From contig JAAEZT010000001.1 of NCBI GenBank assembly GCA_018222765.1, forward strand, positions 207,462-271,461: 64,000 bases of DNA, read 5' to 3'. The position numbers and the translations under genes were made by a program. Origin of the DNA: a bacterium (GTDB taxonomy: Bacteria; Verrucomicrobiota; Verrucomicrobiia; Verrucomicrobiales; Akkermansiaceae). The notes beneath the pieces were generated by a model. That model ran no database searches, was not told where the DNA came from, and saw only the letters and a list, made by a program, of their open reading frames with translations. Within the stretch, counting starts at the first letter, position 1, and every line of letters begins with the position of its first letter. Positions 26,156-44,261 of the stretch are shown here, one piece after another.

Positions 26156-27301
26156 TTGAAAACTTCTATCTATTCCCTGCTCCCATTTCTTGTCATCACG
26201 CCGCTTGTCGCCGAGGAGGCGATTGATCCCGATCGTGCTGCCAATACCATCCTGCTAACCGACTCCGGGGTGAAAAATCTCCGCCTCGAAACAATCGAAG
26301 TCGAAGAGCGCACCTTTAACGAAACGATTTTCGCCATCGGTCGCGTCGAAGACGTTCCTGGTCGTGGCTATGCCATATCCTCACGAATTCCAGGCCGAGC
26401 CTTGACTGTGAATCCGCGGATTGGTGATCGCGTCAAACGCGGAGAGACTTTAATCGAGGTCGAAAGTCGCCAACCTGGCACTCCTCCGCCCATCATTTCC
26501 CTCAAGGCTCTTCGTGACGGAGTCGTCACCGAGACAAATATTATCGAAGGAAAACCCGTCAATCCAGACGATGCCCTGCTCACCATCGCGGACCGTTCGT
26601 TGATGTGGGTTTCTGCTGAAATTCCCGAGCAACGTGCTGCCGGCATCAAGGAAGGGACAAAAGCAGAGATCTCCTTCCCCGCCCTGGGAGGCGACCCGGT
26701 CACGGCAACCCTCCTACGATTTGGAGTGGAGGCCGACGCAACGGCTGGATCGGTTCACGGTATTTTCGAACTGGAAAACTCGACTGGCCGCCTCAGTCCG
26801 GGAATGCGGGCCGAACTGAATATCATCATTTCCTCCCGGCAGGATGTCATGGCTGTCCCAGAAGAATCCATCCAGGGAGATCCCTCATCGCGCCTCGTTT
26901 ACGTGAAGGACCTCGAGCTGGAGAATGCCTTTGTTAAAGCTCCTGTCGTCCTTGGTGCAAGCAGTGGAGGCTGGGTCGAAGTTCTTGAGGGTCTGTTTCC
27001 AGGCGATGATGTTGTCACGCGTGGTTCCTACGCACTTGGTTTTGCCGGGGCTGGTGGTGGGCCATCGCTCAGAGAGGCGCTCGATGCCGCTCACGGGCAC
27101 AAGCATAATGAAGACGGCTCGGAAATGACGCCGGAACAACTGGCAGCCGAAGAGAAAGCCCACGGAGACGATCACGGCCACGAGGGCGGCAGTGCTCCGA
27201 AGTGGCTCGTCTACTATGCCGGTGGGATCACAGTGGCATTTTTAATTGCCATCCAGCTGCTCTGGAACAAGCGTAGAAAGGTAGGGGCATCCCATGCTTA
27301 A
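26156..27301 (+). CDS. RND efflux periplasmic adaptor (CzcB-like) with His-rich C-terminal segment
   Basis: Membrane-fusion protein of 381 aa with a TTG start; no ATG or GTG upstream in frame gives a signal peptide, whereas this start yields MKTSIYSLLPFLVITPLVAE. Lipoyl elements are IPGRALTVNPRIGDRVKRGE and SLKALRDGVVTETNIIEGK, and the usual coiled-coil hairpin between them is nearly absent. A beta-barrel follows (about 160-225). Residues about 315-350 are rich in His, Asp and Glu (AHGHKHNEDG, HGDDHGHEGG), a likely metal-binding loop, and the protein ends with a membrane helix (WLVYYAGGITVAFLIAIQLL) and a basic tail. A C-terminal membrane anchor is uncommon for CzcB. The stop overlaps the RND gene by 8 bases. 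Confidence 0.85.
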   Translation: MKTSIYSLLPFLVITPLVAEEAIDPDRAANTILLTDSGVKNLRLETIEVEERTFNETIFAIGRVEDVPGRGYAISSRIPGRALTVNPRIGDRVKRGETLIEVESRQPGTPPPIISLKALRDGVVTETNIIEGKPVNPDDALLTIADRSLMWVSAEIPEQRAAGIKEGTKAEISFPALGGDPVTATLLRFGVEADATAGSVHGIFELENSTGRLSPGMRAELNIIISSRQDVMAVPEESIQGDPSSRLVYVKDLELENAFVKAPVVLGASSGGWVEVLEGLFPGDDVVTRGSYALGFAGAGGGPSLREALDAAHGHKHNEDGSEMTPEQLAAEEKAHGDDHGHEGGSAPKWLVYYAGGITVAFLIAIQLLWNKRRKVGASHA

Positions 27302-30300
27302 TGCCCTCATCAGATTCTCGCTCGCGCAGCGGGGACTTATCATCATCGGCGCGGTGATCGTCCTGATTCTGGGTGTGCGCAACGCCATCCAGACGCCTGT
27401 CGATGTCCTCCCGGATCTCACCAAGCCAACCGTCACCCTGCTTACCGAGGCGGGTGGCTATTCACCCGAGGAAGTCGAGACCTTGATTTCGATACCATTG
27501 GAGAATTCTCTCGGAGGGGTGACTGGCGTTGACCGTATCCGCACCGTCAATGACATCGGCCTCTCACTGGTTTTCATCGAGTTCGATTGGGGAACCGATA
27601 TTTATCAGGCCCGTCAGTTTGTCCAGGAACGACTAATCGGGGTCGCGGGTGAATTGCCCGAAGACATTACCCCTTACATGACTCCGGTCTCTTCGCTCAT
27701 GGGGGACATCATGCTCATCGGCTTGCGCGACCATACAGGGAAAACCTCGCCGCGTGACCTTCGGGTTCTCTCGGAATGGACCATCGCGCGTCGCTTGCAG
27801 TCCATCCCCGGAATCGCCGAAGTCCTCTCCATGGGCGGTGGCGTGAAGCAGGTGCAAGTCCAGCCCGATCCAGAACGGATGCGGCTATACAACATCACCT
27901 ACGAGGAGTTGCGAGACGCCGCCGCCGAGGCTGTCAAAAATACCACGGGGGGCTTCCTCACCGAGCGCGCGCAGGAAATCATGGTGCGAAATTTGGCCAT
28001 GACCTCATCTACGGAGGTCATCGGAGCCACGATTGTCGATTATCGCAATGACCGCCCAATTCACATTCGCGACGTCGCCAAGGTGACCTGGGATATCGAG
28101 CCCATGCGTGGGGATGCAGGGTTTGGTCTCGCTGACGGGGAAAAGAACGAAAACGGCGACCTAGGCAGTCGCGGGGTCATTATCTCGGTCCGCAAGGCTC
28201 CTGGTTTCGATACCATCGCTCTGACAAAAGAGGTCAATCAAGCCCTCGAAGAACTCAGCACCTCGCTCCCGGAAGGAGCTGAACTTGTCCCACTCTATCG
28301 CCAGGAAGAATTCATCGAATTGTCCATCGATAACCTCATCGAAGCCCTGCGCGACGGCGCCATCATGGTAGCTCTGATTCTTTTCCTTTTCCTGCTCAAC
28401 TTCCGCATCACTGCGATCACCCTGACCGCCATTCCGCTGTCATTGGCGATGACAATGCTCGTCTTTGATCTTTTCGGCCTGACAGTGAACTCGATGACCC
28501 TCGGCGGTCTCGCCGTAGCCGTTGGCATGGTCGTAGATGATGCTATCGTAGACGTGGAAAACGTTTTTCGCCGTCTGCGGGAAAACGCCTCGCTCAAAGA
28601 ACCGTTGCCAAAGATCGAGGTCATCGCACGAGCTTCCAGTGAGGTTCGTTCCTCCATCCTCTACGCGACGATTCTCATCATCCTCGTTTTCCTCCCGCTC
28701 ATGGCTCTCAGTGGTGTCGAAGGCAAATTGTTCACTCCGATTGCCATCGCGACCATCGCCAGCATGGCCGCGTCCTTTGTTGTCTCCCTCACGGTCATTC
28801 CGGTTCTCAGTTCATTTCTGCTGAATCCGAAAGCGGGAAAGGAACACAAGGACTTCATCCTCGTCCGTTGGCTCAAGGCGGTATTCCGCGCCACCTGGAT
28901 GCGCTTGGCGCTTGCCCAGCCCTTGCTTGTCATCGCCATTACGGGTTGCCTCATTGTCTTCGCCTGGTTCCAGTATTCTGAAATGGGGAGAAATTTCCTC
29001 CCGCCTTTCCGTGAGCCGACTGCTCTCGTCGCCACCACGATGAACCCGGGCACTTCCTTGAAAACAACTTCTGAAATGTCCGATGTCGCAATGGAAAGAT
29101 TATTGGAAATTCCGGGGATCAAAACCGTGGCCTTTCGAGCCGGCCGAGCCGAACGGGGTGACCATGTTGTGCCAGTTTCAACCATTGAATTCGATGTCGA
29201 ATTCGAAGAAGACACTACTAGAGACCGCTCTGAGATCATCGCAGACATACGTGCCACTATGAAAGATATGCCTGGCACCTTCAGTGCCATGAGCGGACCA
29301 CTCGCCGACCGCATTGGTCACATGCTCAGCGGAGTTTCAGCCAAGGTTGCGGTCAAAATATTTGGCCCCGACCTTGATGAACTCCGACGCCTAGGCAATG
29401 AAGTTGCCGACGTGGCCCGCTCGATTCCGGGATTGGAGGAAGCTACCGTTGAACAGCAGGCAAGCGTGCCGCAATTGCGCATTGAACCGAAGATCGAACG
29501 CGCCGCTGCCTATGCGGTCACCCCTGCCAGTCTCACCGAAGAACTCTCAGCCCTCATGGGTGGTGAAGAAGTCGCCGAGATTTACGAAGGCGTTCGTGTT
29601 TACGATTTGGTTGTCCGTCTGCCCAAAGAATGGCGGGAGAATCCGGAGAAGCTCAAAGACCTCTACATCGACACCAAAGCCGATTCCCTCGTCCCACTCG
29701 ACACGATTGCCCACATCCGCATGGCCAAGGGACCAAACACCATCAAGCGGGAGAATCTTCGTCGCCGCTTCGTTGTCGGCATCAATCCCACCAACCCCGA
29801 TCTCGTCGCCGCAGTCGATCAGCTCAAGGCCGAAGTCGCAGAAAAGGTGAAACTCCCAGAGGGATATAGTATTTCCTACGAAGGCGAATACGTAGCCCAA
29901 AAGGAGGCAGCTCGGACCATCGCGCTCAGCTCGGCCTTGATCATTCTCGTGATCATTTTCCTGCTCCACTCCTTTTTCAAGAGCTTTGGCTTCGTCGCCC
30001 TCGTGCTGACGATCCTTCCTGTCTCGCTGATTGGCGGCATTCTCTACACTGGGATGACCTTGAATAATATCAGCATTGCTACTCTCGTTGGCTTCATCGC
30101 CGTCGGCGGTATTGCGGCCCGAAATAACATCATGCTGATTTCTCATTACCTGCATCTCATGAAGCACGAGGGCGAATCGTTTACGAAAAAAATGGTCATC
30201 CGAGGCACGGAAGAACGCCTTGTCCCCATTCTCATGACTGCCATCTCGGCGGGCCTGGCCCTTGTGCCACTAGTCATCGCTGCCGATGAACCGGGCAAGG

Positions 30301-30449
30301 AAATCCTCAACCCCGTGGCCATTGTCATTGTTGGCGGCCTCATTAGTTCGACCTTGCTGGGTCTTCTGATTACGCCTGCCCTTTTCTACGCTTTCTGTCG
30401 TAAATCTGCAGAAAAGGCACTCCGGCTCAACGCCAGTGCCTGCTCATAA
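27294..30449 (+). CDS. RND efflux permease, heavy-metal type (CzcA-like)
   Basis: Proton-driven inner-membrane pump of 1051 aa, full family length, with 12 predicted helices and two large periplasmic loops. The N-terminus (ALIRFSLAQRGLIIIGAVIV, then PVDVLPDLTKPTV) matches the heavy-metal RND family. The proton-relay helix reads VGMVVDDAIVDVENV, with paired Asp and Glu in the positions expected of that family. The segment GHMLSGVSAKVAVKIFG resembles CzcA. The paired Met sites typical of copper/silver CusA proteins are not complete. Divalent cations such as Zn, Co, Ni or Cd are the best guess, supported by the His-rich partner and CDF exporter downstream. The start overlaps the adaptor gene. 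Confidence 0.9.
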   Translation: MLNALIRFSLAQRGLIIIGAVIVLILGVRNAIQTPVDVLPDLTKPTVTLLTEAGGYSPEEVETLISIPLENSLGGVTGVDRIRTVNDIGLSLVFIEFDWGTDIYQARQFVQERLIGVAGELPEDITPYMTPVSSLMGDIMLIGLRDHTGKTSPRDLRVLSEWTIARRLQSIPGIAEVLSMGGGVKQVQVQPDPERMRLYNITYEELRDAAAEAVKNTTGGFLTERAQEIMVRNLAMTSSTEVIGATIVDYRNDRPIHIRDVAKVTWDIEPMRGDAGFGLADGEKNENGDLGSRGVIISVRKAPGFDTIALTKEVNQALEELSTSLPEGAELVPLYRQEEFIELSIDNLIEALRDGAIMVALILFLFLLNFRITAITLTAIPLSLAMTMLVFDLFGLTVNSMTLGGLAVAVGMVVDDAIVDVENVFRRLRENASLKEPLPKIEVIARASSEVRSSILYATILIILVFLPLMALSGVEGKLFTPIAIATIASMAASFVVSLTVIPVLSSFLLNPKAGKEHKDFILVRWLKAVFRATWMRLALAQPLLVIAITGCLIVFAWFQYSEMGRNFLPPFREPTALVATTMNPGTSLKTTSEMSDVAMERLLEIPGIKTVAFRAGRAERGDHVVPVSTIEFDVEFEEDTTRDRSEIIADIRATMKDMPGTFSAMSGPLADRIGHMLSGVSAKVAVKIFGPDLDELRRLGNEVADVARSIPGLEEATVEQQASVPQLRIEPKIERAAAYAVTPASLTEELSALMGGEEVAEIYEGVRVYDLVVRLPKEWRENPEKLKDLYIDTKADSLVPLDTIAHIRMAKGPNTIKRENLRRRFVVGINPTNPDLVAAVDQLKAEVAEKVKLPEGYSISYEGEYVAQKEAARTIALSSALIILVIIFLLHSFFKSFGFVALVLTILPVSLIGGILYTGMTLNNISIATLVGFIAVGGIAARNNIMLISHYLHLMKHEGESFTKKMVIRGTEERLVPILMTAISAGLALVPLVIAADEPGKEILNPVAIVIVGGLISSTLLGLLITPALFYAFCRKSAEKALRLNASACS

Positions 30450-30493
30450 GGAGCAACTTCCAAACCAAAAACCAAAAACCGAAAAACAAAGAA

Positions 30494-31081
30494 ATGAAAT
30501 TGAAAAACATCCTGCCCATCGCGGCATCAGCCTTCGCTATCACGGCGACTCCCTTCGTTCTCGCAGACGAGAAGGAGAAAGACCACGACCACAAGGAACA
30601 CGCAGATCATAAGGATCACGACCATGACGACCACGAAGGCCATGACCACGGAGAGAAAATGGCCGGTCCAAATGGCGGCCGCATCCTGACCGAAATCGAG
30701 CCTCACCTTGAGTTCTTCGTCACCAAGGATCGCAAAGTCAAAATCTCTGCGGTCGACGACCACGGCAAAGCCATTCCTCTTGCCAAGCAAAGCGTCGATG
30801 TCATCGCCGGAGATCGCAAGAATCCTATCCGGATGAAGTTTAAAAAAGACGGAAACTCCCTCGTCTCTGACAAGGCTTTTCCGGAGGGCAACGATTTTCC
30901 AGTCATCGTTTCAATCAAGGTCAGTGAAGACGCCAAGAAAGTCCGCGAGAAGTTCAACCTGAACCTCAGAGACTGCCCCACCTGCGACTACCTCGAATAC
31001 GCCTGCACCTGTGACCACGGCCATGATCACGAGGGTCACGATCACGATGATCATGACCACTCCAAGCACGAGAAGAAATAG
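30494..31081 (+). CDS. Periplasmic His-rich metal-binding protein
   Basis: Secreted protein of 195 aa with a signal peptide (about 1-24, ending VLA). His/Asp clusters lie at both ends: residues about 27-55 (KDHDHKEHADHKDHDHDDHE) and 170-195 (HGHDHEGHDHDDHDHSKHEK). The central domain (about 58-160) is beta-rich, with GPNGGRILTEIEPHLEFFV, a form often found in proteins beside CzcABC. Just before the second cluster is CPTCDYLEYACTCDHG with four Cys. This combination implies high-capacity metal buffering in the periplasm that feeds the adaptor and RND pump. Genes before and after on the same strand are close, so it is in the operon. Confidence 0.85.
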   Translation: MKLKNILPIAASAFAITATPFVLADEKEKDHDHKEHADHKDHDHDDHEGHDHGEKMAGPNGGRILTEIEPHLEFFVTKDRKVKISAVDDHGKAIPLAKQSVDVIAGDRKNPIRMKFKKDGNSLVSDKAFPEGNDFPVIVSIKVSEDAKKVREKFNLNLRDCPTCDYLEYACTCDHGHDHEGHDHDDHDHSKHEKK

Positions 31082-31147
31082 CTGATCCCGCCAGATTAAG
31101 GTGAGAGCAGTAAGGAACTGCTCTCACTTTTGCCCCCCAATTTCCTC

Positions 31148-32080
31148 ATGTCCCGCGACCACCATCATCACCACGCCGGGAAGAACCTTGGAATCGCCTT
31201 TTTCCTCAATCTGGTCTTCACCATCATCGAGGCCATCGGCGGCGTGTTGACCAATAGCATCGCGATTCTGTCCGATGCTCTCCACGACTTCGGGGATACA
31301 CTTTCGCTCGGGCTAGCCTGGTATTTCGAGAAAATCTCAGGCAAGCAGCCGACCGCACAGCACACCTACGGCTACAAACGCTTTCGCCTTTTGGGTGGAC
31401 TGATCACCGGCCTCGTCCTCGTGGCAGGACTCTCGGTGGTTCTTTGGAATGCAGTGCAACGCCTTGCCGCTCCAGAGACTGTCCATGCGGGAGGAATGAT
31501 GGCTCTGGCCGTCCTGGGAATTGTCGTCAATGGCCTGGCTGTCCTGCGGGTTCGTAGCGGAACTTCTCTCACTGAGAAAGTCGTCAGTTGGCACCTTCTC
31601 GAAGACGTGCTCGGCTGGGTAGCCGTGCTCATTGGTGCAGCGGCTATGGCCATCTGGGACCTTCCCATCATCGATCCCATCCTTTCGATCGGCATCTCGC
31701 TCTTTGTTCTGTGGAATGTCGCGCGCAATCTAAAGCAGGTGATAATGGTCTTCCTGCAGACCGCGCCCGAGGGCTTCGATGTCAATCATTTCGAAAGCCG
31801 GGTCAAAGAACTCCCAGGAGTCTCTTCGATTCACCACCTGCACCTCTGGTCTCTCGATGGTGAAGACCACGTTCTAACTATCCATGTTGTTCTCGCCTCC
31901 GAAGTTAAGCAGGAGAGAATCGTCTCCATCAAAAGAGAAATTCAAAGCCTTCTCAGCGGGAATGATTTCACTCACATCACAATCGCAACAGAACTTGAAG
32001 GAGAGCAGTGCACACCAAATACGGACCGGCCTCAAAAGTCGTCTTCCTCACGACATTCCTCGCCGAAACCAACCTCTTAA
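31148..32080 (+). CDS. Cation diffusion facilitator exporter (CzcD/ZitB-like)
   Basis: Inner-membrane metal/proton antiporter of 310 aa. The ATG at 31148 starts MSRDHHHHHAGKN, a His-rich cytoplasmic tail; an upstream TTG at 31130 is possible. Six membrane helices cover about residues 12-200. Metal site A is formed by S-D-A-L-H-D-F-G-D in helix 2 and H-L-L-E-D in helix 5, the H/D pattern usual for Zn-type CDFs. The C-terminal cytoplasmic ferredoxin-like domain includes LPGVSSIHHLHLWSLDGEDH. It would move metal from cytoplasm to periplasm for the RND pump to expel. It overlaps no neighbour but lies 66 bases after the His-rich gene. Confidence 0.92.
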   Translation: MSRDHHHHHAGKNLGIAFFLNLVFTIIEAIGGVLTNSIAILSDALHDFGDTLSLGLAWYFEKISGKQPTAQHTYGYKRFRLLGGLITGLVLVAGLSVVLWNAVQRLAAPETVHAGGMMALAVLGIVVNGLAVLRVRSGTSLTEKVVSWHLLEDVLGWVAVLIGAAAMAIWDLPIIDPILSIGISLFVLWNVARNLKQVIMVFLQTAPEGFDVNHFESRVKELPGVSSIHHLHLWSLDGEDHVLTIHVVLASEVKQERIVSIKREIQSLLSGNDFTHITIATELEGEQCTPNTDRPQKSSSSRHSSPKPTS

Positions 32081-32344: not shown

Positions 32345-33088
32345 ATGAAATTATCATTCTTATCTCTCACCACCCTTTGCAGCCTCTTCCCTTTGGTAGG
32401 TTTCGCGACACCTTGCCCCCTCGGCGGGACTTGTCCGTCGGATTACCGAATTGCCCTCGGACATTCCGACGGAGACTCAGTTGAATCCGGAGTCGTTTCC
32501 GAAGTCCCTTCATGACCGATGTGACCAGGCGAAGGCGGCACCGTGAGTGGCGCAGCAGAAAAGAGTAATTTTGTGTTCTCCGGTCGCTGGATTCCCGAAA
32601 AGAGCGATGCCGGGCAGGTGTTCTTCAGTTTCAAGTATTGGGCAACCGACGACTTAGGACTGGGAGTGGACTATCGACCACTGGTAGATTCCGCGAGCTT
32701 TACCGCCACCTATCGACTCATCTCGGAAGATCCGCACACTTGGAAACCAGCTGTCATTGTCGGAACAAGTGTCGACGACTTCACTGATGGAGGTGATTCC
32801 GTAGAATCACGATCCTACTACGCAACAGTTAGTAAGGCCTACCCACAGGCCAAGTTCTGGGGCATCACTCCTGCTCCTTATGTTGGTGCCGTCTGGATCG
32901 ACAAGCTCAACGAGCTAAGACCCCTGGCAGGCATCAACCTCAGCCACAAGGAAGCCTCACTCATGCTACAATACAGCGGAACCGACACCCACTTGACATT
33001 GACACGCCGGCTGAATGATCACGTCTCAGTAAGTGCTATTTATTGGGGCTTGAAATACCCCGGACTAGGCATGCGCTTAAAGTTCTAG
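32345..33088 (+). CDS. Candidate selenoprotein: outer-membrane barrel-like protein with U57-x-x-U60
   Basis: From the ATG at 32345 one frame runs to 33088, interrupted only by TGA at 32513-32515 and 32522-32524 (codons 57 and 60). Before the first TGA lies a signal peptide (MKLSFLSLTTLCSLFPLVGF) and a Cys pair (TPCPLGGTCPSD). After the second the frame continues for 187 codons with alternating beta strands and a terminal Phe (GLGMRLKF), the signature of outer-membrane barrels. Read as selenocysteine the site is U-P-M-U-P, a CxxC-type motif. A hairpin with bacterial SECIS geometry begins 10 bases after the second TGA. Alternatives are a pseudogene, or a start at the GTG at 32543 without a signal peptide. 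It is the last gene of the Czc-like operon, 56 bases after the previous frame, and is followed by a terminator. Confidence 0.6.
32535..32553 (+). promoter_or_regulatory. Candidate SECIS hairpin (gene at 32345)
   Basis: GCGGCAC (32535-32541), loop CGTGA, GTGGCGC (32547-32553): seven-position stem with one central G-G mismatch. The loop starts 17 bases after the second UGA and 26 bases after the first, and its second base is G. The published bacterial SECIS model allows 16-37 bases from UGA to the loop and requires G in the first two loop bases. It was paired by eye, not folded. Confidence 0.5.
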
Positions 33089-34326: not shown

Positions 34327-34839
34327 CTAATTAAAGTTACCGGTTATCACCTGAATCACTTTTGATTCAGTTTCGCTAGTTTGCGGCCAAGCCTCCAAGG
34401 CTTTTTTGACCTTCAGGCATAATGCCTTTCGTCTCTTGGAAGCCGCAGCAAAAGACAACCCCGCCTCTTCAAAAAACTTCTCCCAATTCCTCTGACGTAA
34501 TCTGGACGGCTTCCGTTCTCCACCAATCTTCATTGCCATTTCATCAGACAAATCCGGATATGCCTGCGTGCAAACCAAATCGTAAAGCGGTGCTAACCTC
34601 GTTTCCGATTCATGGTAGAGGAACGAGAAATTCTTCCCATGCGCGTCGTTATTTCCGATAATTTGGTTGAATATAACTGCATCAAAGAGACGCAAAAGAT
34701 CGACACCAGGCATTGATGAAATTTCTTTAACCAGCGCAAAGCATCGCTTCAAATTCGGACCTCCTTCTTGCTGATACTTGAGCTCAGGAGCAATGCCCAT
34801 CGCCTGACAGAAATCCTCTTGATGGATGCGCTCAAGTTG
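34327..34839 (-). pseudogene. HipA-like kinase C-terminal remnant
   Basis: The frame carries the C-terminal half of a HipA-type serine kinase, the toxin of HipBA persistence modules. Starting upstream of any ATG it reads LERIHQEDFCQAMG, then KYQQEGGPN, the catalytic loop IGNNDAHGKNFSFLY, and the metal-binding segment APLYDLVCTQAYPDL. The largest ATG-started part is 157 aa (34327-34800), against about 400 aa for intact HipA. The N-terminal half and any HipB antitoxin are missing. The 5' end of the remnant runs into the 3' end of the glutaredoxin-MauE gene, so the truncation point is a recombination junction near 34840-34860. A functional kinase is unlikely because the nucleotide-binding lobe is absent. 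Confidence 0.75.
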
Positions 34840-35576
34840 GCCTTCAGCAACATCCAGATGGACATCCCCATCATCATGAGGTTTTCAGTTAAGGAAATAA
34901 AACCAAGTGGGACGCTACTTCCTCCCCCTACACAAGCACAGCTAAGGTCCCGTTTCTCTATGTAGACGGCCTTGAAGACGGAAATCGCACCAATCGTGGA
35001 GACGATCAATGCAGCCGGAGCAGCGACCCAGGTGAACAGTCCTGCTATCATCAGAGTCCCGGCCCCAGCCTCAACGAACGGGTAAATGTAGGAATAGGGC
35101 ACATAGCGTTGAGCGATCATGTCGTATTGGATAAATCCCGTTGCGAAGGACTGAAGGTCCTGCAGCTTGAAAATACCAAGCACGCACATACTGAAAGCTA
35201 CGAACAACTCGAAAATTCGAACCGGTGCCAATTCACCTTGTAGTGCCCAGCTTGTGGTTAACGCCATCAAAATCGTGACGGCAAAGATCGCGACAACGGG
35301 CTGATAGCTCTCCCCTTCCTTCGGGTCAGGAGGAAGATCGAGATACTCACGAAGCTGATCGTAGCCACCAATATGCTCAGCTCCAACCCAAACCTGTGGA
35401 GTCTCGTCATGCCCATTTTCCTCTTTGTAGGCCTTGTTAGCGTCCATGCTCTCGAGGTGCTCGTCTGCAACCTCGAAACCATTACGCTTTAAAAGGTCGA
35501 AAGCCTTGATTCCCCATGGGCAAAGGTGGTCGGATGTGACCATCCGGACAATCTTAGCCTGTTTTTTTGCCATCAT
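34749..35576 (-). CDS. Glutaredoxin-MauE/DoxX fusion with abnormal C-terminus
   Basis: Inner-membrane redox protein of 275 aa. An N-terminal glutaredoxin-like domain (about 1-82) has the motif HLCPWGIKAF (CPWG) and the conserved TPQVWVGAEHIGGYDQLREY. A MauE/DoxX-type four-helix membrane domain follows (about 92-250) with CACVGGG (Cys pair) before the last helix, ENLMMMGMSIWMLL. The final 27 residues (from about KANLSAS) are encoded by sequence that belongs, in another frame, to the HipA remnant, so the natural stop has been lost and the tail is acquired. The protein probably shuttles thiols or reductant across the membrane. It follows the UxxU gene in the Cus-like operon, a fitting partner for a diselenide or dithiol protein. 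Confidence 0.8.
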   Translation of the reverse strand: MMAKKQAKIVRMVTSDHLCPWGIKAFDLLKRNGFEVADEHLESMDANKAYKEENGHDETPQVWVGAEHIGGYDQLREYLDLPPDPKEGESYQPVVAIFAVTILMALTTSWALQGELAPVRIFELFVAFSMCVLGIFKLQDLQSFATGFIQYDMIAQRYVPYSYIYPFVEAGAGTLMIAGLFTWVAAPAALIVSTIGAISVFKAVYIEKRDLSCACVGGGSSVPLGFISLTENLMMMGMSIWMLLKANLSASIKRISVRRWALLLSSSISKKEVRI

Positions 35577-35599: not shown

Positions 35600-36502
35600 T
35601 TAGAAACTATAGCTCAACCCGAAGCTCCAAAGCGGGCCGACGGTCAACGCGGTTTCATTGACATCCCGGTAGACTGGAACCGCTACGGAAAGCGAGGCAT
35701 TGACGTCATCATTGATGGAGTAGATTAGCGAAGGCGTAATGGAAAGCGTGGTCGAACCAGTGTCGGCGATGTCGACGCCAAGGAACTCATCTCGTTCCCC
35801 ATGAAACAGATCCAAGGACAGCTTTGCGCTAAGGTTTTCACTCAGGCTCCGGCTCACTCCTGTGCTGAAAAACAAGGTCTCGGCAGGCCGAAAATCCTTC
35901 GAGCTTTCATAGAGCGGCAATGTCAAATTCAAGCTGGAGAAGTAAGACCAATCATCAATCTCACCTGAATAGCGTGTCCCAAGTGTCAGCTGAGTCGTCC
36001 CAGTGCCCAGTTGAAATACACTCGGATTCACTCCCCCCACACGGGGATTGTCTCGAGCTTCTCCGGTGGGAAGTATGAATCCAAAGTTGAAACTCAATCC
36101 ACTGAGAGACGAATCATCGTTGGACCATGGTGACAAGATCGCGGTCAGGCTCATATCACCCAGTCCACTGATGTTGACATCGCTTTGTCCGTCCTCTCTC
36201 CGTGTCCCATCGGTGAAAGGAACGCGCAAACTGAAAATCCAGTTCTTGTCGAATCGGTAGGAGCCACCCAGCGAAAACTGGTGAAACTCAGTTGAAATAT
36301 CGCTTGGATTTCCGACTCTGTTCGAGCCGTCAAAGATCTCATCATTGAGACGATAACGGTAGTCGAACGCGAGACTGAACGCGGATCCATCAGCAACAGA
36401 ATCACCGCCAACTGGCGGCGCAGTGAGTTTTCATCCGTCTCATCCAAATGAGGAGAGAGGAAGGAGCGCGACAATGGCAACAGTCGTTTTTATCAGGTTC
36501 AT
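35600..36502 (-). CDS. Candidate selenoprotein: outer-membrane transporter-like barrel with U21-x-x-U24
   Basis: The ATG at 36502 lies one base after the CusA stop (TAATATG). It starts the signal peptide MNLIKTTVAIVALLPLSSFG, followed at once by TGA (36440-36442), Asp, Gly and TGA (36431-36433), then an unbroken 276-codon frame to 35600. The sequence right after the second TGA is already convincing barrel protein (TAPPVGGDSVADGSAF, LAFDYRYRLNDEI), and the first usable start in that frame after it is a TTG 68 codons on. Hence the natural product must read through both TGAs or the gene is dead. It ends in Phe (GLSYSF), as outer-membrane barrels do. Read as selenocysteine the site is U-D-G-U, right after the signal sequence. 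A SECIS-like hairpin follows at the same distance as in the gene at 32345. Confidence 0.62.
36403..36420 (-). promoter_or_regulatory. Candidate SECIS hairpin (gene at 36502)
   Basis: On the minus strand CGCCGCC (36420-36414), loop AGTT, GGCGGTG (36409-36403): seven pairs including one G-U. It begins 10 bases after the second UGA. The loop starts 17 bases after the second and 26 after the first UGA, and its second base is G. Spacing and arm length are identical to the hairpin at 32535. Confidence 0.55.
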
Positions 36503-36503
36503 A

Positions 36504-39500
36504 TTATTGGATTTCATGTTTTTTTGGAGAGCGAAGTTCTTTGGTAAGGCAATACAGGACGGGCACCACGAACATGGTGAGGAGTTCGATCAGCATGCCG
36601 CCGAAGATGGGAATGGCCATTGGGACCATGAGATCGGAGCCGCGGCCAGTGCTGGTGAGGACCGGCAGGAGCGCAAGAAGCGTGGTAGCGGTGGTCATGA
36701 GACAGGGGCGAACGCGACGCATTCCAGCTTCAAGGGCTGCCTGGCGCATTTCGGAAATTGTCGTTGGCTTCAGTTCCTCGAATTTTTGGCGGAGGTAGGT
36801 CGAGATGACCACTCCATCATCTGTGGCGATGCCAAAGAGGGCGAGAAAGCCGACCCAGACGGCGACCGAGATATTAACAGGGCCGACATTGAAAAGGTGG
36901 GCAACGTTGTGGCCGAAGACTTCGAAGTTGAGGAAGCCGGGTTGGCCGTAGAGCCAAAGCATGAGAAATCCCCCGGCCCAGGCGACAGCCACGCCAGAGA
37001 AAACGATGGCTGTGGAGGCGGCGGATTTGTTGTCCAGGTAGAGGATCATGAAGATGATGCCGAGACAGAGTGGCACCGCAAACATGAGGGTTTTATTGGA
37101 CTCCAAAGCAGACTGATAGTTGCCCGCAAACTCGTAGCGAACACCAGCAGGGCGCTTCAACTCCCCCGTCGATTCCATCTTCTTGAGGTAAGCCTGCGCT
37201 GCTTCCACAACATCTATCTCGGCATTGCCAGCTTCAGCTCCGAAGGTGACATAGCCGGTAAGGAAAGTATCTTCAGCTTTGATGTTTTGAGGCCCACGAA
37301 CGTAGCGAATGGAGGCGAGCTGGGAGAGCGGAATTTGCGCCCCTCCTTTCGCTTTAATCAGAATCCTGTTCAAATCTTCAATAGCATCACGATTCTCCCG
37401 CATGTAGCGAACTTGGACCATGTAGCGCTCCCGCCCCTCCACCGTGGTTGAGACCATACGTCCTCCTATTGCGGTTTGAATGGCATCATGGACATCAACG
37501 ATATTCAGGCCGTAGCGCGATGCCTCATCGCGATCAGGAATGATCTCTAAATAAGGTTTTCCGACAATTCGGTCAGCATTCACTGTTGCAGTGTTGAGAC
37601 CTTTGATCATCCCGCTACGAAGGTGGCGCTCGATCTCGATTCCAAAGTCCTCAATGGTGCGGAGGTCGGGACCTTTGATTTTCAACCCCATGGGCGCACG
37701 CATCCCGGTTCTCAACATCACGAGACGGGTTTCGATCGGTTGAAGCTTCGGTGCACCGGTTACTCCGGGGAGTTGGGTCACACGACTGATTTCAGCCCAG
37801 ATATCGTCGGGAGATTTGATATGCGGCCTCCATTGACGAAAAGGTTTTCCGTTATCGTCAGGAACCAGAGCCTCATTTTCATAAACAAAGTCACCTTTGT
37901 CGTCGGTCTTGAAACGAAGAATTTCGCCTTTCTCACTACTTTTAAACTCTGAGACGTAGTTAATGACGGTCTCAACCATCGAAAGCGGTGCCGGATCGAG
38001 AGGAGTCTCGGCACGACCGATCTTCCCAACCACTCGCTCAACTTCTGGAATCGAGGCGATGGCGGCATCGAGTTGCCTGAGAGATTCTTGAGCTTCCTCG
38101 ATAGAAGCATGAGGAGCCACGGTAGGCATGAAGAGAAATGTTCCTTCATCGAGAGCTGGTCGAAATTCCTCACCGAGCCCCGGAAACTTCTTTGAAGCAT
38201 CCTTATAGAGAGCGGACTGCTTGGCTGATTCCGGAAGGAAAGAAAAGACCTTGGGGAAGCCAAGCCAAATGCTGAAAGCCATCGCGAGCAATAACACCGG
38301 CGCGGAGAGAAAGAGTGCCTTGTGGTTGAGGCACCATTTTAAAATTCCTCCGTAGAGCTTTTCGAAGCCCTTGAAGAAAATCAGGAGCCCACCAATCACA
38401 AGGCAAACGAAAAGAATATTGACCCCTGTCGTGCGGTCGAGACCGAGCGGCATCCAGTCTTTTGCGAGAAGCCAAGTAACGAAAAAGGCCACTGCGATGT
38501 TAAACCCGATGAATGTGAATTTGAGAGATTTTGACTTTCTCAGAGCAGCAAACTTGCGGAAGAGCGGGAAACGGTATCCGAAAAGGATGTGGGCCACCGG
38601 AGGAATGATAGTGAGTGCCACTACAATGGAAGCTATGAGCGCAAAAGACTTGGTGAACGCCAAGGGTTTGAACAGACGCCCCGCCTCCCCTGTCATCGTG
38701 AAGACCGGGAGGAAGCTCACTACCGTGGTCGCTACCGAAGTTGTCACGGCCCCGGCGACTTCAGTGACCCCACGATAAATGACGGCAGCTTTCGACTCCT
38801 CGGGATCCGCTTCATCGAGGTGCTTCAATATATTTTCGGTAAGAACAATGCCGACATCGACGACGGTGCCAATCGCAATGGCGATACCAGAAAGGGCGAC
38901 GATATTGGCATCGACTCCCCAAATCTTCATCGAGATGAAAGTGATGAGAACCGCAAGTGGGAGCATCATCGCGATGAGAATACTGCTCCTAAAATGGAGC
39001 AACATGATCACAACCACGATAATAGTAACGAGAACCTGCTGATAAAGAGCATCGTCAAGAGTGTTGAGCGTTTCACCGATGAGCTCTGAGCGGTCGTAGA
39101 AAGGAACCACGGTCACCTTCGAGGTTGTAAACCACGCAGGCCAAGATCCTGGATCGAGTTGGCCAAAGTGAGCCATCCAAGCGTCTTCATTGAGAGAAAT
39201 ACCATCTGTAAAAGGAGTGCCAATCCCCTTCTGATCTGCGAAGGCAGCCGCTTCTTCAAAGCTTATTTTAGTCCAATCAATGACAGGACGGATCGGCAGG
39301 GCTTCCGTGAGTTCCTCAACCTTCTTCTTCGTTGCTTTGATCGCAGCCAGCGGGTTCGTTCCATAACGAGCAACAACAACTCCGCCCACAGCGTCGGCAC
39401 CATTCACGTCAAGCATCCCGCGCCGGATTGCTGGTCCAAGTTGCACCGTTGCAATATCAGCGACAGTGATGGGGCTATTGTCACGAACAGCCACCACTGC

Positions 39501-40286
39501 TTTCTCGATATCCTCTACCTTCTCAATGTAACCGGTTCCGCGGAGGAAATACTCGACACCATTGACCGCAAGATTCCGCGCGCCTATTTCTTGATTGGAT
39601 TTCCGAACAGCATCTGCGACTTGAGCCAAAGAAATATCATGAGCTCGAAGAGCATCTGGATCAATATCGACTTGATATTGCCGTTGGAAGCCTCCAACAG
39701 AAGCAACTTCGGCAACCCCGTTAGCCGCCAATAGCGCATAGCGAACCTGCCAATCTTGAATCGATCGAAGTTCGTCAAGATCCCAACCTCCGGCGGGATT
39801 ACCCTGCGGATCACGACCTTCAAGAACATACCAAAAGACCTGCCCAAGCCCAGTTGCATCGGGTCCCAGTGTTGGCGTGACATTCCCAGGAAGAAGGTTT
39901 GCCGGAAGAGAGTTTAGCTTCTCCAAAACCCTGCTTCGACTCCAATAGAAATCAATTTCCTCCTCGAAAATCAGATAAACGTAGGAATAACCGAACATGG
40001 AGAATGAGCGAACTTCCTTGACCCCCGGAACGCCCAAGAGGGCGACCGTTAGTGGATAGGTAATCTGGTCCTCCACGTCTTGTGGTGATCGGCCATTCCA
40101 CTCGGTGAAGATAATCTGCTGATTATCTCCAAGGTCAGGGATTGCATCGACTGCGACAGGATCACGCGGGTAATCCCCGGTATCCCAGTCAAAAGGGGCA
40201 ACCTTTACTCCCCAGCCGATGAAGAAGGTGAGAAGAAGAAAAACAACCAGCTTTTGGTGGAGGCAAAAATGAATGAGAGCTTTCAC
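36504..40286 (-). CDS. cusA: RND efflux permease, copper/silver type (CusA-like)
   Basis: Inner-membrane pump of 1260 aa, longer than CusA or CzcA (about 1050), the extra length lying in inserts of the periplasmic loops and near residues 340-400. The proton-relay helix reads AIAIGTVVDVGIVLTENILK, of the Cus type. Three Met positions resemble those lining the CusA metal path: LFMPTVAPH, APLSMVETV and LVMLRTGMRAPMGLK. KIGRAETPLDPAPLSM is a close match to the CusA segment. Predicted cargo is Cu(I)/Ag(I), supported by the metal-binding domains of the adaptor encoded 22 bases upstream. The UxxU gene starts immediately after its stop. The symbol is given by family resemblance. Confidence 0.88.
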   Translation of the reverse strand: MKALIHFCLHQKLVVFLLLTFFIGWGVKVAPFDWDTGDYPRDPVAVDAIPDLGDNQQIIFTEWNGRSPQDVEDQITYPLTVALLGVPGVKEVRSFSMFGYSYVYLIFEEEIDFYWSRSRVLEKLNSLPANLLPGNVTPTLGPDATGLGQVFWYVLEGRDPQGNPAGGWDLDELRSIQDWQVRYALLAANGVAEVASVGGFQRQYQVDIDPDALRAHDISLAQVADAVRKSNQEIGARNLAVNGVEYFLRGTGYIEKVEDIEKAVVAVRDNSPITVADIATVQLGPAIRRGMLDVNGADAVGGVVVARYGTNPLAAIKATKKKVEELTEALPIRPVIDWTKISFEEAAAFADQKGIGTPFTDGISLNEDAWMAHFGQLDPGSWPAWFTTSKVTVVPFYDRSELIGETLNTLDDALYQQVLVTIIVVVIMLLHFRSSILIAMMLPLAVLITFISMKIWGVDANIVALSGIAIAIGTVVDVGIVLTENILKHLDEADPEESKAAVIYRGVTEVAGAVTTSVATTVVSFLPVFTMTGEAGRLFKPLAFTKSFALIASIVVALTIIPPVAHILFGYRFPLFRKFAALRKSKSLKFTFIGFNIAVAFFVTWLLAKDWMPLGLDRTTGVNILFVCLVIGGLLIFFKGFEKLYGGILKWCLNHKALFLSAPVLLLAMAFSIWLGFPKVFSFLPESAKQSALYKDASKKFPGLGEEFRPALDEGTFLFMPTVAPHASIEEAQESLRQLDAAIASIPEVERVVGKIGRAETPLDPAPLSMVETVINYVSEFKSSEKGEILRFKTDDKGDFVYENEALVPDDNGKPFRQWRPHIKSPDDIWAEISRVTQLPGVTGAPKLQPIETRLVMLRTGMRAPMGLKIKGPDLRTIEDFGIEIERHLRSGMIKGLNTATVNADRIVGKPYLEIIPDRDEASRYGLNIVDVHDAIQTAIGGRMVSTTVEGRERYMVQVRYMRENRDAIEDLNRILIKAKGGAQIPLSQLASIRYVRGPQNIKAEDTFLTGYVTFGAEAGNAEIDVVEAAQAYLKKMESTGELKRPAGVRYEFAGNYQSALESNKTLMFAVPLCLGIIFMILYLDNKSAASTAIVFSGVAVAWAGGFLMLWLYGQPGFLNFEVFGHNVAHLFNVGPVNISVAVWVGFLALFGIATDDGVVISTYLRQKFEELKPTTISEMRQAALEAGMRRVRPCLMTTATTLLALLPVLTSTGRGSDLMVPMAIPIFGGMLIELLTMFVVPVLYCLTKELRSPKKHEIQ

Positions 40287-40307: not shown

Positions 40308-42578
40308 CTACTTGCCGTGATTGTGCTTCTCCATTCCCTCCATCTTTTTCATGGGGGGCTTCTCCCCCAGCGAGAGAGTGGAGGTTACTGAACCGCAGTT
40401 CAGCATGGCGTCACCAAAATATGGGTTGAAGACTTCAGGAGCGTTGGAAATCCAATCCCCTCCCTTCCCATCCGCAACCATGGGACAATGAACAACATAG
40501 GCACTGCCGACTTGATCCAGCCCGTAAGAACGAACAAGCGAGATGAGCCGGTTACTGATGTTCTGAAAGACTACCCGCTGTTTCGAGATGTCGCCTTCTC
40601 CTGCAAGCGCATTGGCATTTTCTTGCAGGTATTTGGCATCCTCTGTCAGTGGAATCTTACCACTGGCCTTGGAAAAATCACGCGCAGCGGCTTGAGCCTT
40701 TTCAGGAGCATCGTCGGCGAGCGCCTTGGAGAGCGGCAAGTAGGTTTTGATAATCTCTTCGAGAGACCCGGCAATCACCGGATCAACCTTGGGAGGTGCT
40801 TCCGTGTGAGTGGGCAGGCCAAGATAGCGGCCGGCCTCTTCGGCAGACCGGGTTACAATCCGCGCCGATTGCTGAACGTTCTTGGGAAGTTGACGACCAG
40901 CAATCTTCAATCCATTCATGAGCCTGTTGGAAAATTCACCCCATAGCTTCAGAGTATCGGGTTGGAATGTTGACTGATCCACAGCCTCAATCGCACGCTC
41001 CATTCCGGCAATCGCTTCTTTGGCAGCCATAGGTTCACTGGCATGTTGAAGCCGGGCCAGAGAGCGGAGAAAAGGCGCCCATTGCCCGGCAAGATCTTCG
41101 GGAGCTGAATTTGCCGGAGCTTCCACCAATCCAGCGTTTGGATTCATCATGGAAGGTTTGGCCTTGATCTGGAGCTCGGAATCCAGCTTGAAAGCGCCTT
41201 GGGAAACAACCAATTCACCCTCGCTTAGTCCATTCACGACAATGAATTGTTTCCCAACCTTTGGACCAAGAACGATTTCGCGCCCTTCAAAGGTTGGGTC
41301 TACTTTTTCAGGAACACGGACATAAACGACGGCTCGCTCGCCGGTTTGAAGAACCGCTGATGCAGGAACGAGTATAGGAAGATCACTCTTCTCATCAGTA
41401 GTTGCAATAAAACCCAACTCACTAGCTGGAACCAAGGGCATGTCGCAAATATCACAGGTCCCGGGTCCGTCTTTCACAATCTCGGGGTGCATCGGACTAA
41501 TCCACTTCCCAGCCATGGATGGATCCACAACTTGACCTCCACTGGTCATGCGGGACTCGACATGAGCTCGGGCAAACATACTCGGCTTGAGCTTCTGACC
41601 AGGATTATCCAGATTCACACGCACTTGAGTCACCCTCGTGGTCGGGTTGATATCAGGGTCAATGAAGGCAACTCGTCCGTGATATTCCTCTCCTGGGAAA
41701 GCCTCAATGCTGAATGCCACATCCTGGGCGTATCGAATCCATGGAAGATCACTTTCATAAGCTTCCAAAATCAGCCACACTTTGGAGAGATCAGCGACCT
41801 TGAAGAGAGAATCACCCGTCTTGACGTAGGAGCCGAGATCAACCGATTTCTCAACAACAATTCCATCCTGAGGAGAGCGTATGGTGATGCGATCGCTGGG
41901 ATTCTTCTGCATTGCGATTTCATCAATCTGTTCCTCTGAGAGCTGAAGAAGCCGAAGCTTCTCACGAGCGGCATTGAGCAGACGCCGGCGGGTTTGCATG
42001 ACTGAATCGGAAGGCTTACCAGAAAGAGTCTTTATGGCTTTGGTCGCTTCAATTACCTCTCGCTGGGCAACATAAATTTCGGGCGAATAGATTTCTGCGA
42101 GGTGATCTCCCTTGCGAACCATCGCACCAGTGAAATCCACAAAGAGCCTGTCTATGCGTCCCCCAATTCGTGATGTGCTGGCCGAAACGCGACGTTCGTC
42201 GTATGCAATCCGACCAAAGAGAGAGACATCGGCAACAGCAGCAGAGCGAATGACCGGCGACACCTGCAAATTAAGCAATGCAGCGGCCTCAGAGCTGACC
42301 GTAACTTCGCGGATTCCCCCTTCTCCAGAGTCCTGAAGAGGAATTAGGTCCATTTCGCAGATCGGGCAAAGCCCGGGATTAGGCTGGCGAATCTGTGGAT
42401 GCATTGAGCACGTCCAAGTTTCGTCCGATTCTCCAGCTGACACCGTTTGTTTTGGTTTTTCGGCAGGAAGACCAAACCACCATCCCATCGCGAAGAGACT
42501 AAGAGGCAAAAGAATGGTGAGGATCTTACGGGGCTGACGAAAGATGGTTTTGAGAGCCTTTGGGATTTTCATTTTCAT
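40308..42578 (-). CDS. cusB: RND efflux adaptor (CusB-like) with two heavy-metal-binding domains
   Basis: Periplasmic adaptor of 756 aa, much longer than CusB (about 400). A membrane helix (about 20-36) is followed by a heavy-metal-binding domain, TCSMHPQIRQPNPGLCPICE (about 56-75). The lipoyl and hairpin regions follow (DRITIRSPQDGIVVEKSVD). A second, degenerate metal-binding domain, SPMHPEIVKDGPGTCDICD, in which the first Cys is Ser, is inserted at about 362-385. The C-terminal part (about 490-740) includes a DUF3347-like helical domain and ends with HCPMVADGKGGDW, LNCGS and a Met/His tail (MKKMEGMEKHNHGK). Cu/Ag specificity is the best reading. It lies between the CusC-like channel gene and cusA. 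Confidence 0.88.
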   Translation of the reverse strand: MKMKIPKALKTIFRQPRKILTILLPLSLFAMGWWFGLPAEKPKQTVSAGESDETWTCSMHPQIRQPNPGLCPICEMDLIPLQDSGEGGIREVTVSSEAAALLNLQVSPVIRSAAVADVSLFGRIAYDERRVSASTSRIGGRIDRLFVDFTGAMVRKGDHLAEIYSPEIYVAQREVIEATKAIKTLSGKPSDSVMQTRRRLLNAAREKLRLLQLSEEQIDEIAMQKNPSDRITIRSPQDGIVVEKSVDLGSYVKTGDSLFKVADLSKVWLILEAYESDLPWIRYAQDVAFSIEAFPGEEYHGRVAFIDPDINPTTRVTQVRVNLDNPGQKLKPSMFARAHVESRMTSGGQVVDPSMAGKWISPMHPEIVKDGPGTCDICDMPLVPASELGFIATTDEKSDLPILVPASAVLQTGERAVVYVRVPEKVDPTFEGREIVLGPKVGKQFIVVNGLSEGELVVSQGAFKLDSELQIKAKPSMMNPNAGLVEAPANSAPEDLAGQWAPFLRSLARLQHASEPMAAKEAIAGMERAIEAVDQSTFQPDTLKLWGEFSNRLMNGLKIAGRQLPKNVQQSARIVTRSAEEAGRYLGLPTHTEAPPKVDPVIAGSLEEIIKTYLPLSKALADDAPEKAQAAARDFSKASGKIPLTEDAKYLQENANALAGEGDISKQRVVFQNISNRLISLVRSYGLDQVGSAYVVHCPMVADGKGGDWISNAPEVFNPYFGDAMLNCGSVTSTLSLGEKPPMKKMEGMEKHNHGK

Positions 42579-42592
42579 GGCTTTAGATGGTA

Positions 42593-43909
42593 TTATTTGA
42601 GTCCTGCGGCGGCTTTGAGAGTGGCCACGGCTTTGCCAAGTTGTGCACGATTTCGAGCAAACTGGAGTTGGTAGGTCAGCAGTTGACGCCAGGTGTCGAT
42701 CACATTAATAAAGGTATCCTTTCCTGCTGCGTATGAAGTCAGGGTGACCTCATAGGCTTGCTGGGCGTCAGGGAGGAGACGCGTCTTAAAAAGATCTGAA
42801 ACCTCACGAGCAGTTTTGGCGCGGAAATAGGCATCCTGAACCCGGAAGCGAAGATCGGAACGGGTGGATCCGAGAAGAGCCTGGGTCTCTGCTATTCCAG
42901 CATTGGCCTCGCGAATCATGGCTCGGCGAGGCTCCTGCCAAAGCGGAATATTAAATCCCAACGTCCCGAAGATTTGATCATCGCCATTGGCTGACGGCGC
43001 AAGCCCGTTTGAGGCCACGGCTGCACCTTGAACACCAATGGTAAAATCGGGATATTTTTCGAGCTTAGCTCTAATGAGTCGATGTTTGAACGCTTCGATT
43101 CTATTCGCCGCAGAAACGACTTCGGGATGTCGGGTTTCGGCACCAACAAGAAGTGATTTTAGGTTCTGAGGAGGATCCACCTCACGATCTGTAGCTATTG
43201 GAAGTGGCGCTCCCGCAGGACGATTGAGAAGCGAATTTAAACGCGCTTTAGCAACCTTTTCGACACTTCTGGCTTCTGCAAGATCTCGATCAATTTTCGT
43301 GATTTCATTGGCGACACGAAGCTGATCGGCCTGCCCACCCTGACTTGCGGCAACCTGAGCCTCCACGGATTCCTCAACAACACGCAGAAGCTGCTGACTC
43401 TCCTTGCTAATCCGAATGGTGATTCCCGCGAGGTAGTAGTCCCACCAGGCACTACGAACTTGTTCAGTCAGTTTCAATTCATACGCTGCAACATCAGCCC
43501 GGACGGCAAGCACCTCTCGTCTAGCAGCAAGGCCTTCCTCGCGTCTCTTACCCAGAAAAGGAATTTTCTGACTCACGCCAACGACCGCATCAACACGACC
43601 AGCCGCCGTTTCAGGGAGGTTTCCAAGAGCTAAATTTGCCATCGGATCGGGGAGAGACTCGACTTGGGGAATCTTTGCCTCCATTCGCTCCACCCGATGC
43701 CTCATAGCTTTGAGTCGGGGATTATGTCGAGAGGCCAGCTCGGCTAGAGTTTCCGGCCCTGCCTGAGAAGGAATGTGATAGCTCTCAGCTTTTGATCCGT
43801 CGATGGTAGCTTCGTCTACTTTAACAAGAGGAATATCTCCCGAATCTGAAAATTCGGAACAGGATGAAAGGATCGCAAGCGCGCTCAAGCTGAGAATTGA
43901 AAGTTTCAT
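42593..43909 (-). CDS. cusC: TolC-family outer-membrane efflux lipoprotein (CusC-like)
   Basis: Outer-membrane channel of 438 aa with lipoprotein signal MKLSILSLSALAILSSC. Features of the family are a short linker, then a first helical repeat (ASRHNPRLKAMRHRVERMEA, VGVSQKIPFLGKRREEG) and a second (RHPEVVSAANRIEAFKHR, GFNIPLWQEPRRAMIRE). It is followed after 14 bases by the adaptor gene and then cusA, giving the CBA order of a complete pump. It differs from the channel at 24709, so each RND system has its own. Confidence 0.9.
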   Translation of the reverse strand: MKLSILSLSALAILSSCSEFSDSGDIPLVKVDEATIDGSKAESYHIPSQAGPETLAELASRHNPRLKAMRHRVERMEAKIPQVESLPDPMANLALGNLPETAAGRVDAVVGVSQKIPFLGKRREEGLAARREVLAVRADVAAYELKLTEQVRSAWWDYYLAGITIRISKESQQLLRVVEESVEAQVAASQGGQADQLRVANEITKIDRDLAEARSVEKVAKARLNSLLNRPAGAPLPIATDREVDPPQNLKSLLVGAETRHPEVVSAANRIEAFKHRLIRAKLEKYPDFTIGVQGAAVASNGLAPSANGDDQIFGTLGFNIPLWQEPRRAMIREANAGIAETQALLGSTRSDLRFRVQDAYFRAKTAREVSDLFKTRLLPDAQQAYEVTLTSYAAGKDTFINVIDTWRQLLTYQLQFARNRAQLGKAVATLKAAAGLK

Positions 43910-43964: not shown

Positions 43965-44261
43965 CTAAGGCTTCTTCAACTTTGCCAAATATTTGGCAGG
44001 TTCTTTTTTAAACTTGGGAAGGCATCCGTCGCAGCAGAAGCGAACCTCGGCTCCTTCGTGAGTAATGACGAATGGCTCGCCCATTGAGCCTAGTTTTTCA
44101 CCAGATACGACGCAGGTATCGAGGGGGTATTCGGAGTCGATCTTCTTTGTTTCTGAAGATGGCTCAGCAGAAGAATCGCCGGTTGCCGATTGATCGTTTT
44201 TGCAGGAAACGAGGGCGGTAAGAGACAAAGCTATCAGTATTGGAAGTTTCTTGAATTTCAT
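43965..44261 (-). CDS. Small YHS-like lipoprotein
   Basis: Lipoprotein of 98 aa: signal ending LVSC (about residue 20), an acidic Ser/Thr/Glu linker, and a compact C-terminal domain with DTCVVSGEKLGSMG and RFCCDGCLPKFKKEP. Such YHS/TRASH-type Cys motifs bind soft metals, typically copper, and are common next to Cus systems. It is the second gene of the Cus-like operon, 55 bases before cusC. The likely role is a periplasmic metal chaperone delivering Cu/Ag to the adaptor. Confidence 0.8.
   Translation of the reverse strand: MKFKKLPILIALSLTALVSCKNDQSATGDSSAEPSSETKKIDSEYPLDTCVVSGEKLGSMGEPFVITHEGAEVRFCCDGCLPKFKKEPAKYLAKLKKP

Follow-up and report, generated by a model that had tools for sequence, protein, structure and literature searches.

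The gene lying one base beyond the CusA-family pump gene in the window (the whole stretch of DNA that was analysed, 64,000 nt) is interrupted by two in-frame TGA codons and, judging by its sequence and those of its relatives, almost certainly encodes a selenoprotein. The best explanation of the data as a whole, with a probability of roughly 0.6, is a selenoprotein barrel whose Sec-x-x-Sec (UxxU) tail holds a soft metal, with Cu(I) the likeliest. Redox enzymes, often with a thioredoxin-like fold, make up most of the catalogued selenoproteins. Here an outer-membrane channel encoded in metal-handling loci would open with two selenocysteines, which would tie selenium to the passage of metals across the outer membrane.

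Table 1. Features of the UxxU locus. Positions are those of the window, except in the last row, where they are those of the loci named.
Feature	Position	Strand	Remarks
Predicted UxxU outer-membrane channel CDS	35600..36502	-	300 aa if TGA is read as Sec; coordinates include the stop TAA
Predicted signal peptide, codons 1-20	36443..36502	-	Predicted cleavage directly before Sec21
TGA 1 (Sec21)	36440..36442	-	Predicted mature residue 1
TGA 2 (Sec24)	36431..36433	-	
Predicted SECIS hairpin	36403..36420	-	Core stem 36418-36414 with 36409-36405, loop AGUU
Stop codon TAA of the UxxU gene	35602-35600	-	
Glutaredoxin-MauE fusion	34749..35576	-	23 nt downstream; MauE over cut-off, Glutaredoxin below
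CusA/CzcA-family RND pump	36504..40286	-	One base upstream; TIGR00914 over cut-off, ACR_tran
CusB-type adaptor with heavy-metal-binding domains	40308..42578	-	HlyD_D23, HMBD
CusC-type outer membrane efflux protein	42593..43909	-	OEP
Small protein, weak YHS/TRASH-type domain	43965..44261	-	YHS 1.4e-6, below cut-off
Exported C-x-x-C proteins	L047 2582-2977; L049 485-976; L054 655-1050; L057 966-1349; L061 2502-2885		

Two UGA codons and a predicted SECIS hairpin

Exactly two TGAs, at codons 21 and 24 (TGA-GAC-GGA-TGA), interrupt an otherwise intact frame of 300 codons. The initial annotation had put the start at an ATG one base past the CusA stop, the TGAs directly after a signal peptide and ahead of 276 further codons, and the first in-frame start beyond them at a TTG. 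The sequence reads accordingly, with the ATG at 36502-36500, the CusA TAA at 36506-36504 and the TTG opening an ORF at 36229-35600. A second in-frame ATG at 36517, which overlaps the end of cusA, is a possible alternative start. As gene callers miss the first ~92 codons, genes of this kind probably go unnoticed in other genomes.

Among 144 genomes searched, the window's own included, 22 held a match to the UxxU protein. All 20 close full-length copies (from 19 genomes, own included; 40-93% identical to the window protein, its own copy left out) carry two TGAs, no more or fewer, at the same place: UDGU in 17, UDAU in two and UGGU in one. A conserved signal peptide precedes both TGAs in each copy, and KL and then mostly PPVGG follow the motif. 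Past the second TGA, dN/dS was 0.12-0.21 in the six pairs computed, a sign of purifying selection. By the measure of this recurrence in 20/20 copies and these ratios, the two-TGA arrangement exceeds chance. Six matches have no TGA (L037, L038, L039, L041, L042 and L043). One of them, L041, is a contig-end fragment in genome G065 that is 58% identical; as it begins only at residue 211, it says nothing about the N-terminus. A scan of genome contigs gave two loci.

Sequencing error, which had been named beforehand as a way in which the proposal could fail, is excluded by the presence of both TGAs in 20 copies from 19 genomes. Elsewhere in the window TGA acts as an ordinary stop, ending 12 of the 36 long non-overlapping ORFs; the code is thus not reassigned, and wholesale TGA reassignment is ruled out.

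The hairpin CGCCGCC-AGTT-GGCGGTG described in the initial annotation is present at 36420-36403. Its consensus in the copies is CCR-CC-AGUU-GG-YGG, with a conserved core of 5 bp, and the loop begins 17 nt past UGA 2 and 26 nt past UGA 1. In the available text of a 2026 review, the bSECIS model has a stem of 4-16 bp, a loop of 3-9 nt with a G within its first two positions, a distance of 16-37 nt from the UGA and an MFE of at most -7.5 (PMC13188914). The core, the AGUU loop and both distances lie within these ranges, as do the MFEs of six folded sequences (-9.4 to -16.6, all below -7.5), for which folding z-scores were modest (-0.96 to -2.28). One folded copy (G066) is without the outer pair and prefers another fold when folded alone.

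Conservation at synonymous sites also points to the hairpin. When the 35 fourfold sites shared by at least 19 of the 20 copies are ranked by third-base entropy, codons 30, 31, 29 and 32 come out lowest. Across 18 distinct rows, the stem is paired in 98.9% of cells; one third-codon-base pair is G-C in 14 rows and A-U in four, both changes being synonymous. The covariation score was above that of 500/500 shuffles, while a two-sided change occurred in only one pair, a count reached by 352/500 shuffles. Scans for sigma-70 promoters and terminators stayed at chance level, with the hairpin itself listed as terminator-like, and Rfam gave only one match near the gene, also at chance level. A single SECIS hairpin would decode both UGAs, which lie nine bases apart, and the gene would offer a clear-cut example from nature in which to ask how SelB handles two codons.

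The machinery for selenocysteine is present in the window's genome, where SelA, SelB and a tRNA-Sec with anticodon TCA each scored above cut-off. SelA was found in 17 of the 19 two-TGA genomes, tRNA-Sec in 15, and one or the other in 18; the sole genome in which neither was matched, G001, is 86% complete. SelA is more frequent in two-TGA genomes than in the others (17/19 vs 53/125, Fisher p 1.2e-4), an association confounded by kinship, since SelA occurs in 25 of the 27 genomes from the window's genus.

Cysteine forms and barrel fold

According to the initial annotation, UDGU stands in for a CxxC at the mature N-terminus, and homologues lacking Cys there would speak against this. The replacement is supported by a full-length alignment with L037 and L038, which have Cys at both Sec positions, the C21 and C24 columns being invariant. 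Among 29 distant barrels (L037, L038 and L046-L072), 15 show a Cys motif immediately behind the signal peptide (CxxC in ten, CACGC in five), in forms that include C-x-x-C-G-C and C-A-C-G-C. The motif is missing in the other 14, several of which are His-rich barrels.

The two-TGA form was found only in the window's family, with three genomes in a class sample of 384 and one in a phylum sample of 387. In a tree of the 20 UxxU rows and 14 chosen Cys forms, barrels without a Cys motif being left out, the two sets were split by one branch with 100/100 support and a long-branch warning. No NCBIfam family was found for two Cys forms tried, nor a Pfam family for L037. Related barrels at L092-L095 and L097 carry an N-terminal CxxC...CGC stretch followed by a His-containing APxGVMGDHxH. 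A plasmid search with a Cys form returned two records, with the motif SCGSANC rather than CxxC; the relative in CP114559.1 (L113 5649-6645) is broken by frame changes and that in CP114554.1 is intact.

Signal peptidase I recognises residues -3 and -1 ahead of its cleavage site, and a lipobox has L, V or I at -3 before Cys. In all 20 copies -3 is A or S and -1 is G (A or G at -1 in the 14 Cys rows). By the signal peptidase I rule, Sec is thus probably the first residue of the mature protein, a prediction held with good confidence. The same -3 residues rule out a lipoprotein.

The protein is very likely an outer-membrane channel, and its modelled fold is a 12-stranded barrel of the COG4313/FapF type. 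Phenol_MetA_deg (PF13557) was matched over its cut-off (1.3e-9, 39 bits vs 22), and AlphaFold2 gave a 12-stranded barrel with a pLDDT of 76.1, or 83.7 for the mature form, in which the N-terminal tail was the low-confidence part of both models (about 30-57). The best fold match of the two models was 4rl8 (Z 24.9 / 25.2, 252 / 254 residues aligned, rmsd 2.6 / 2.5), followed by FapF (Z 24.6 / 24.9); a profile search agreed weakly (FapF 0.0016, 4rl8 0.0045). The copper protein PcoB reached Z 12.8, only the level of other barrels. Of the earlier description as an outer-membrane transporter-like protein, the barrel is upheld by these matches and the transporter role stays conjectural.

Among known systems, the COG4313/PF13557 channels (4rl8, Pput2725) and FapF (5o65) are closest, sharing 12 strands, an N-terminal segment ahead of strand 1 and a Z of about 25 over 250 residues. 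The lumen of 4rl8 is plugged from its periplasmic side by the 14 N-terminal residues, according to the accessible part of its description (PMC4493636). The UxxU protein differs from both in its Sec-x-x-Sec at the mature N-terminus and its metal-type neighbours, whereas hydrophobic compounds are what 4rl8 is linked to and FapF is an amyloid exporter. The homologous Cys-form barrels of Verrucomicrobiota ('CSxCGCSLSxDW', 'CASCG', 'CACGCG') have Cys directly past the signal peptide; they carry Cys in place of Sec and add a third one (x-C-G-C), and their small Cys-motif neighbours are different.

Selenocysteine in outer-membrane β-barrels has precedents in the TonB-dependent receptor FCYXU type (NF049945) and the GSU2204/MtrB-PioB type (NF041027), as catalogued in the part of the 2026 review available (PMC13188914). 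These have one Sec each and belong to other domain families, whereas the UxxU protein has no TonB or MtrB domain; membership among TonB receptors is ruled out by the lack of a TonB domain in Pfam and NCBIfam. In the same catalogue, the U-x-x-U spacing occurs in a Prx-like thiol oxidoreductase, a metal-binding protein (NF041115) and an FmdB-like family, which are not β-barrel channels, the Prx-like type having a Trx-like fold (PMC13188914). The UxxU barrel had no match in NCBIfam 20. Table 1 of that review, with 119 families, has no PF13557 or COG4313 entry (PMC13188914), and the barrel was not found in the portions of a 2022 review, the deep-Sep paper and the Planctomycetes paper available in the open-licence PubMed Central literature. 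The family is therefore new to these sources, as far as their available text goes, and not proven unpublished.

Metal context and proposed function

The neighbours make copper the likeliest metal and the best-supported context for the channel: CusCBA lies beside it here and in the sister genome G021, and copper genes lie beside some Cys forms. In G021, CusCBA and the UxxU gene are joined by genes for a YHS protein and an HMBD-containing P-type ATPase. These are the only two of the 20 loci, several on short contigs, in which CusA adjoins the UxxU gene; it was not found in the other 18. There, a small secreted Cys-rich protein is encoded upstream on the same strand, at ~100-270 nt, in 15 of 18 loci (L074-L077, L079-L086, L088, L089 and L091); 12 are clustered ORFs, one was read by eye and two are contig-end tails only. 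The three loci without it (L078, L087 and L090) hold only 222-414 nt upstream. These proteins fall into two similar-looking groups, and seven that were tried matched no NCBIfam or Pfam family. A search with the L083 protein in five genomes (own, G021, G020, G015 and G066), run with no positive control, gave 0/5 matches. They look like an undescribed metal-carrier partner of the channel.

Among the 15 Cys-form loci read, with flanks of 1.5 kb and some of the neighbours scanned, three showed copper-type neighbours: SCO1 together with a CusF-SCO1 fusion at L057, a CusB-type adaptor at L051 and a multicopper oxidase at L050. Small exported C-x-x-C proteins with a PP-rich tail occur just upstream of Cys-form barrels (Table 1) and are perhaps the counterpart of the Cys-rich partner.

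In the mechanism proposed, signal peptidase I would leave Sec as residue 1, and the exported form would start Sec-Asp-Gly-Sec-Lys at a flexible periplasmic N-terminus. The two selenols, with the free amine, may coordinate a soft metal, Cu(I) being the likeliest, either inside the lumen or at the periplasmic mouth of the channel; the tail could thus hold the metal and gate its passage across the outer membrane. In the window's genome the channel would work beside CusCBA; in most relatives it would work with the small secreted Cys-rich protein, probably a periplasmic carrier of the same metal. Binding of a soft metal, mainly copper, is moderately favoured. The COG4313 channels known so far are tied to hydrophobic substrates in the available text on them, which counts against a metal role (PMC4493636). 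Gating of the lumen by the Sec tail is a far more tentative idea. Equally speculative is its fullest version, a selenium-gated channel in which a tail with a free-amine Sec start acts as a lumen plug that Cu(I) opens or loads, one SECIS serves two UGAs, and the gene at 32345 joins in a selenium-dependent envelope metal system of the lineage.

A redox role, although unlikely, is the alternative that survives best. The UxxU pair would cycle between diselenide and diselenol in thiol-disulfide exchange at the periplasmic face (e.g. redox gating), fed by MauE-type proteins, and metal would not be its main task. In the available part of the catalogue, many of the UxxC/CxxU families are redox proteins (PMC13188914). 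The glutaredoxin-MauE gene is next here, as the initial annotation had it, a MauE protein follows in G007, and a TlpA-family gene lies at least two genes downstream of two distant plasmid relatives. However, MauE-type genes follow in only these two of 20 loci (several contigs short), metal-handling neighbours are commoner, and the Cys forms C-x-x-C-G-C and C-A-C-G-C resemble a metal site more than a Trx active site. The UxxU protein itself has no thioredoxin fold; membership among Trx-type CxxC oxidoreductases is ruled out by the barrel fold and the lack of a Trx domain.

It is rather unlikely that the channel handles a metal complex or a different soft metal or metalloid (Hg, Ag, As, Zn) in place of free Cu(I). 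Such a substrate would suit the CDF cation exporter and second RND pump near the gene in the window, a Cys-rich partner that matches no family, and one plasmid relative near nickel and chromate genes, whereas CusF, SCO1, multicopper oxidase, HMBD-CusB and HMBD-ATPase neighbours indicate copper.

Highly improbable is an account without selenocysteine (a pseudogene, sequencing error, readthrough with another amino acid, or a late TTG start), which could point to the downstream codon that standard gene callers would take as the start and to the two of 19 two-TGA genomes without a SelA match and four without a tRNA-Sec match, but which faces both TGAs in 20 copies with the signal peptide ahead of them and the low dN/dS (grounds on which error, pseudogene and late start are rejected), a hairpin kept at synonymous sites, Cys counterparts, TGA as an ordinary stop elsewhere and only one genome, incomplete, without both SelA and tRNA-Sec.

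The window also holds a further metal cluster at 27294-32080 (+), with the second RND pump, a His-rich exported protein and the CDF cation exporter. Another UxxU candidate, at 32345-33088 (+), appears well supported as such and has no Pfam or NCBIfam match. Its close copies number 12, from 12 genomes that include the window's own, and have two TGAs each in the motifs UPMUPGEGG or UPLUP; 12 weaker matches have 0-2 TGAs.
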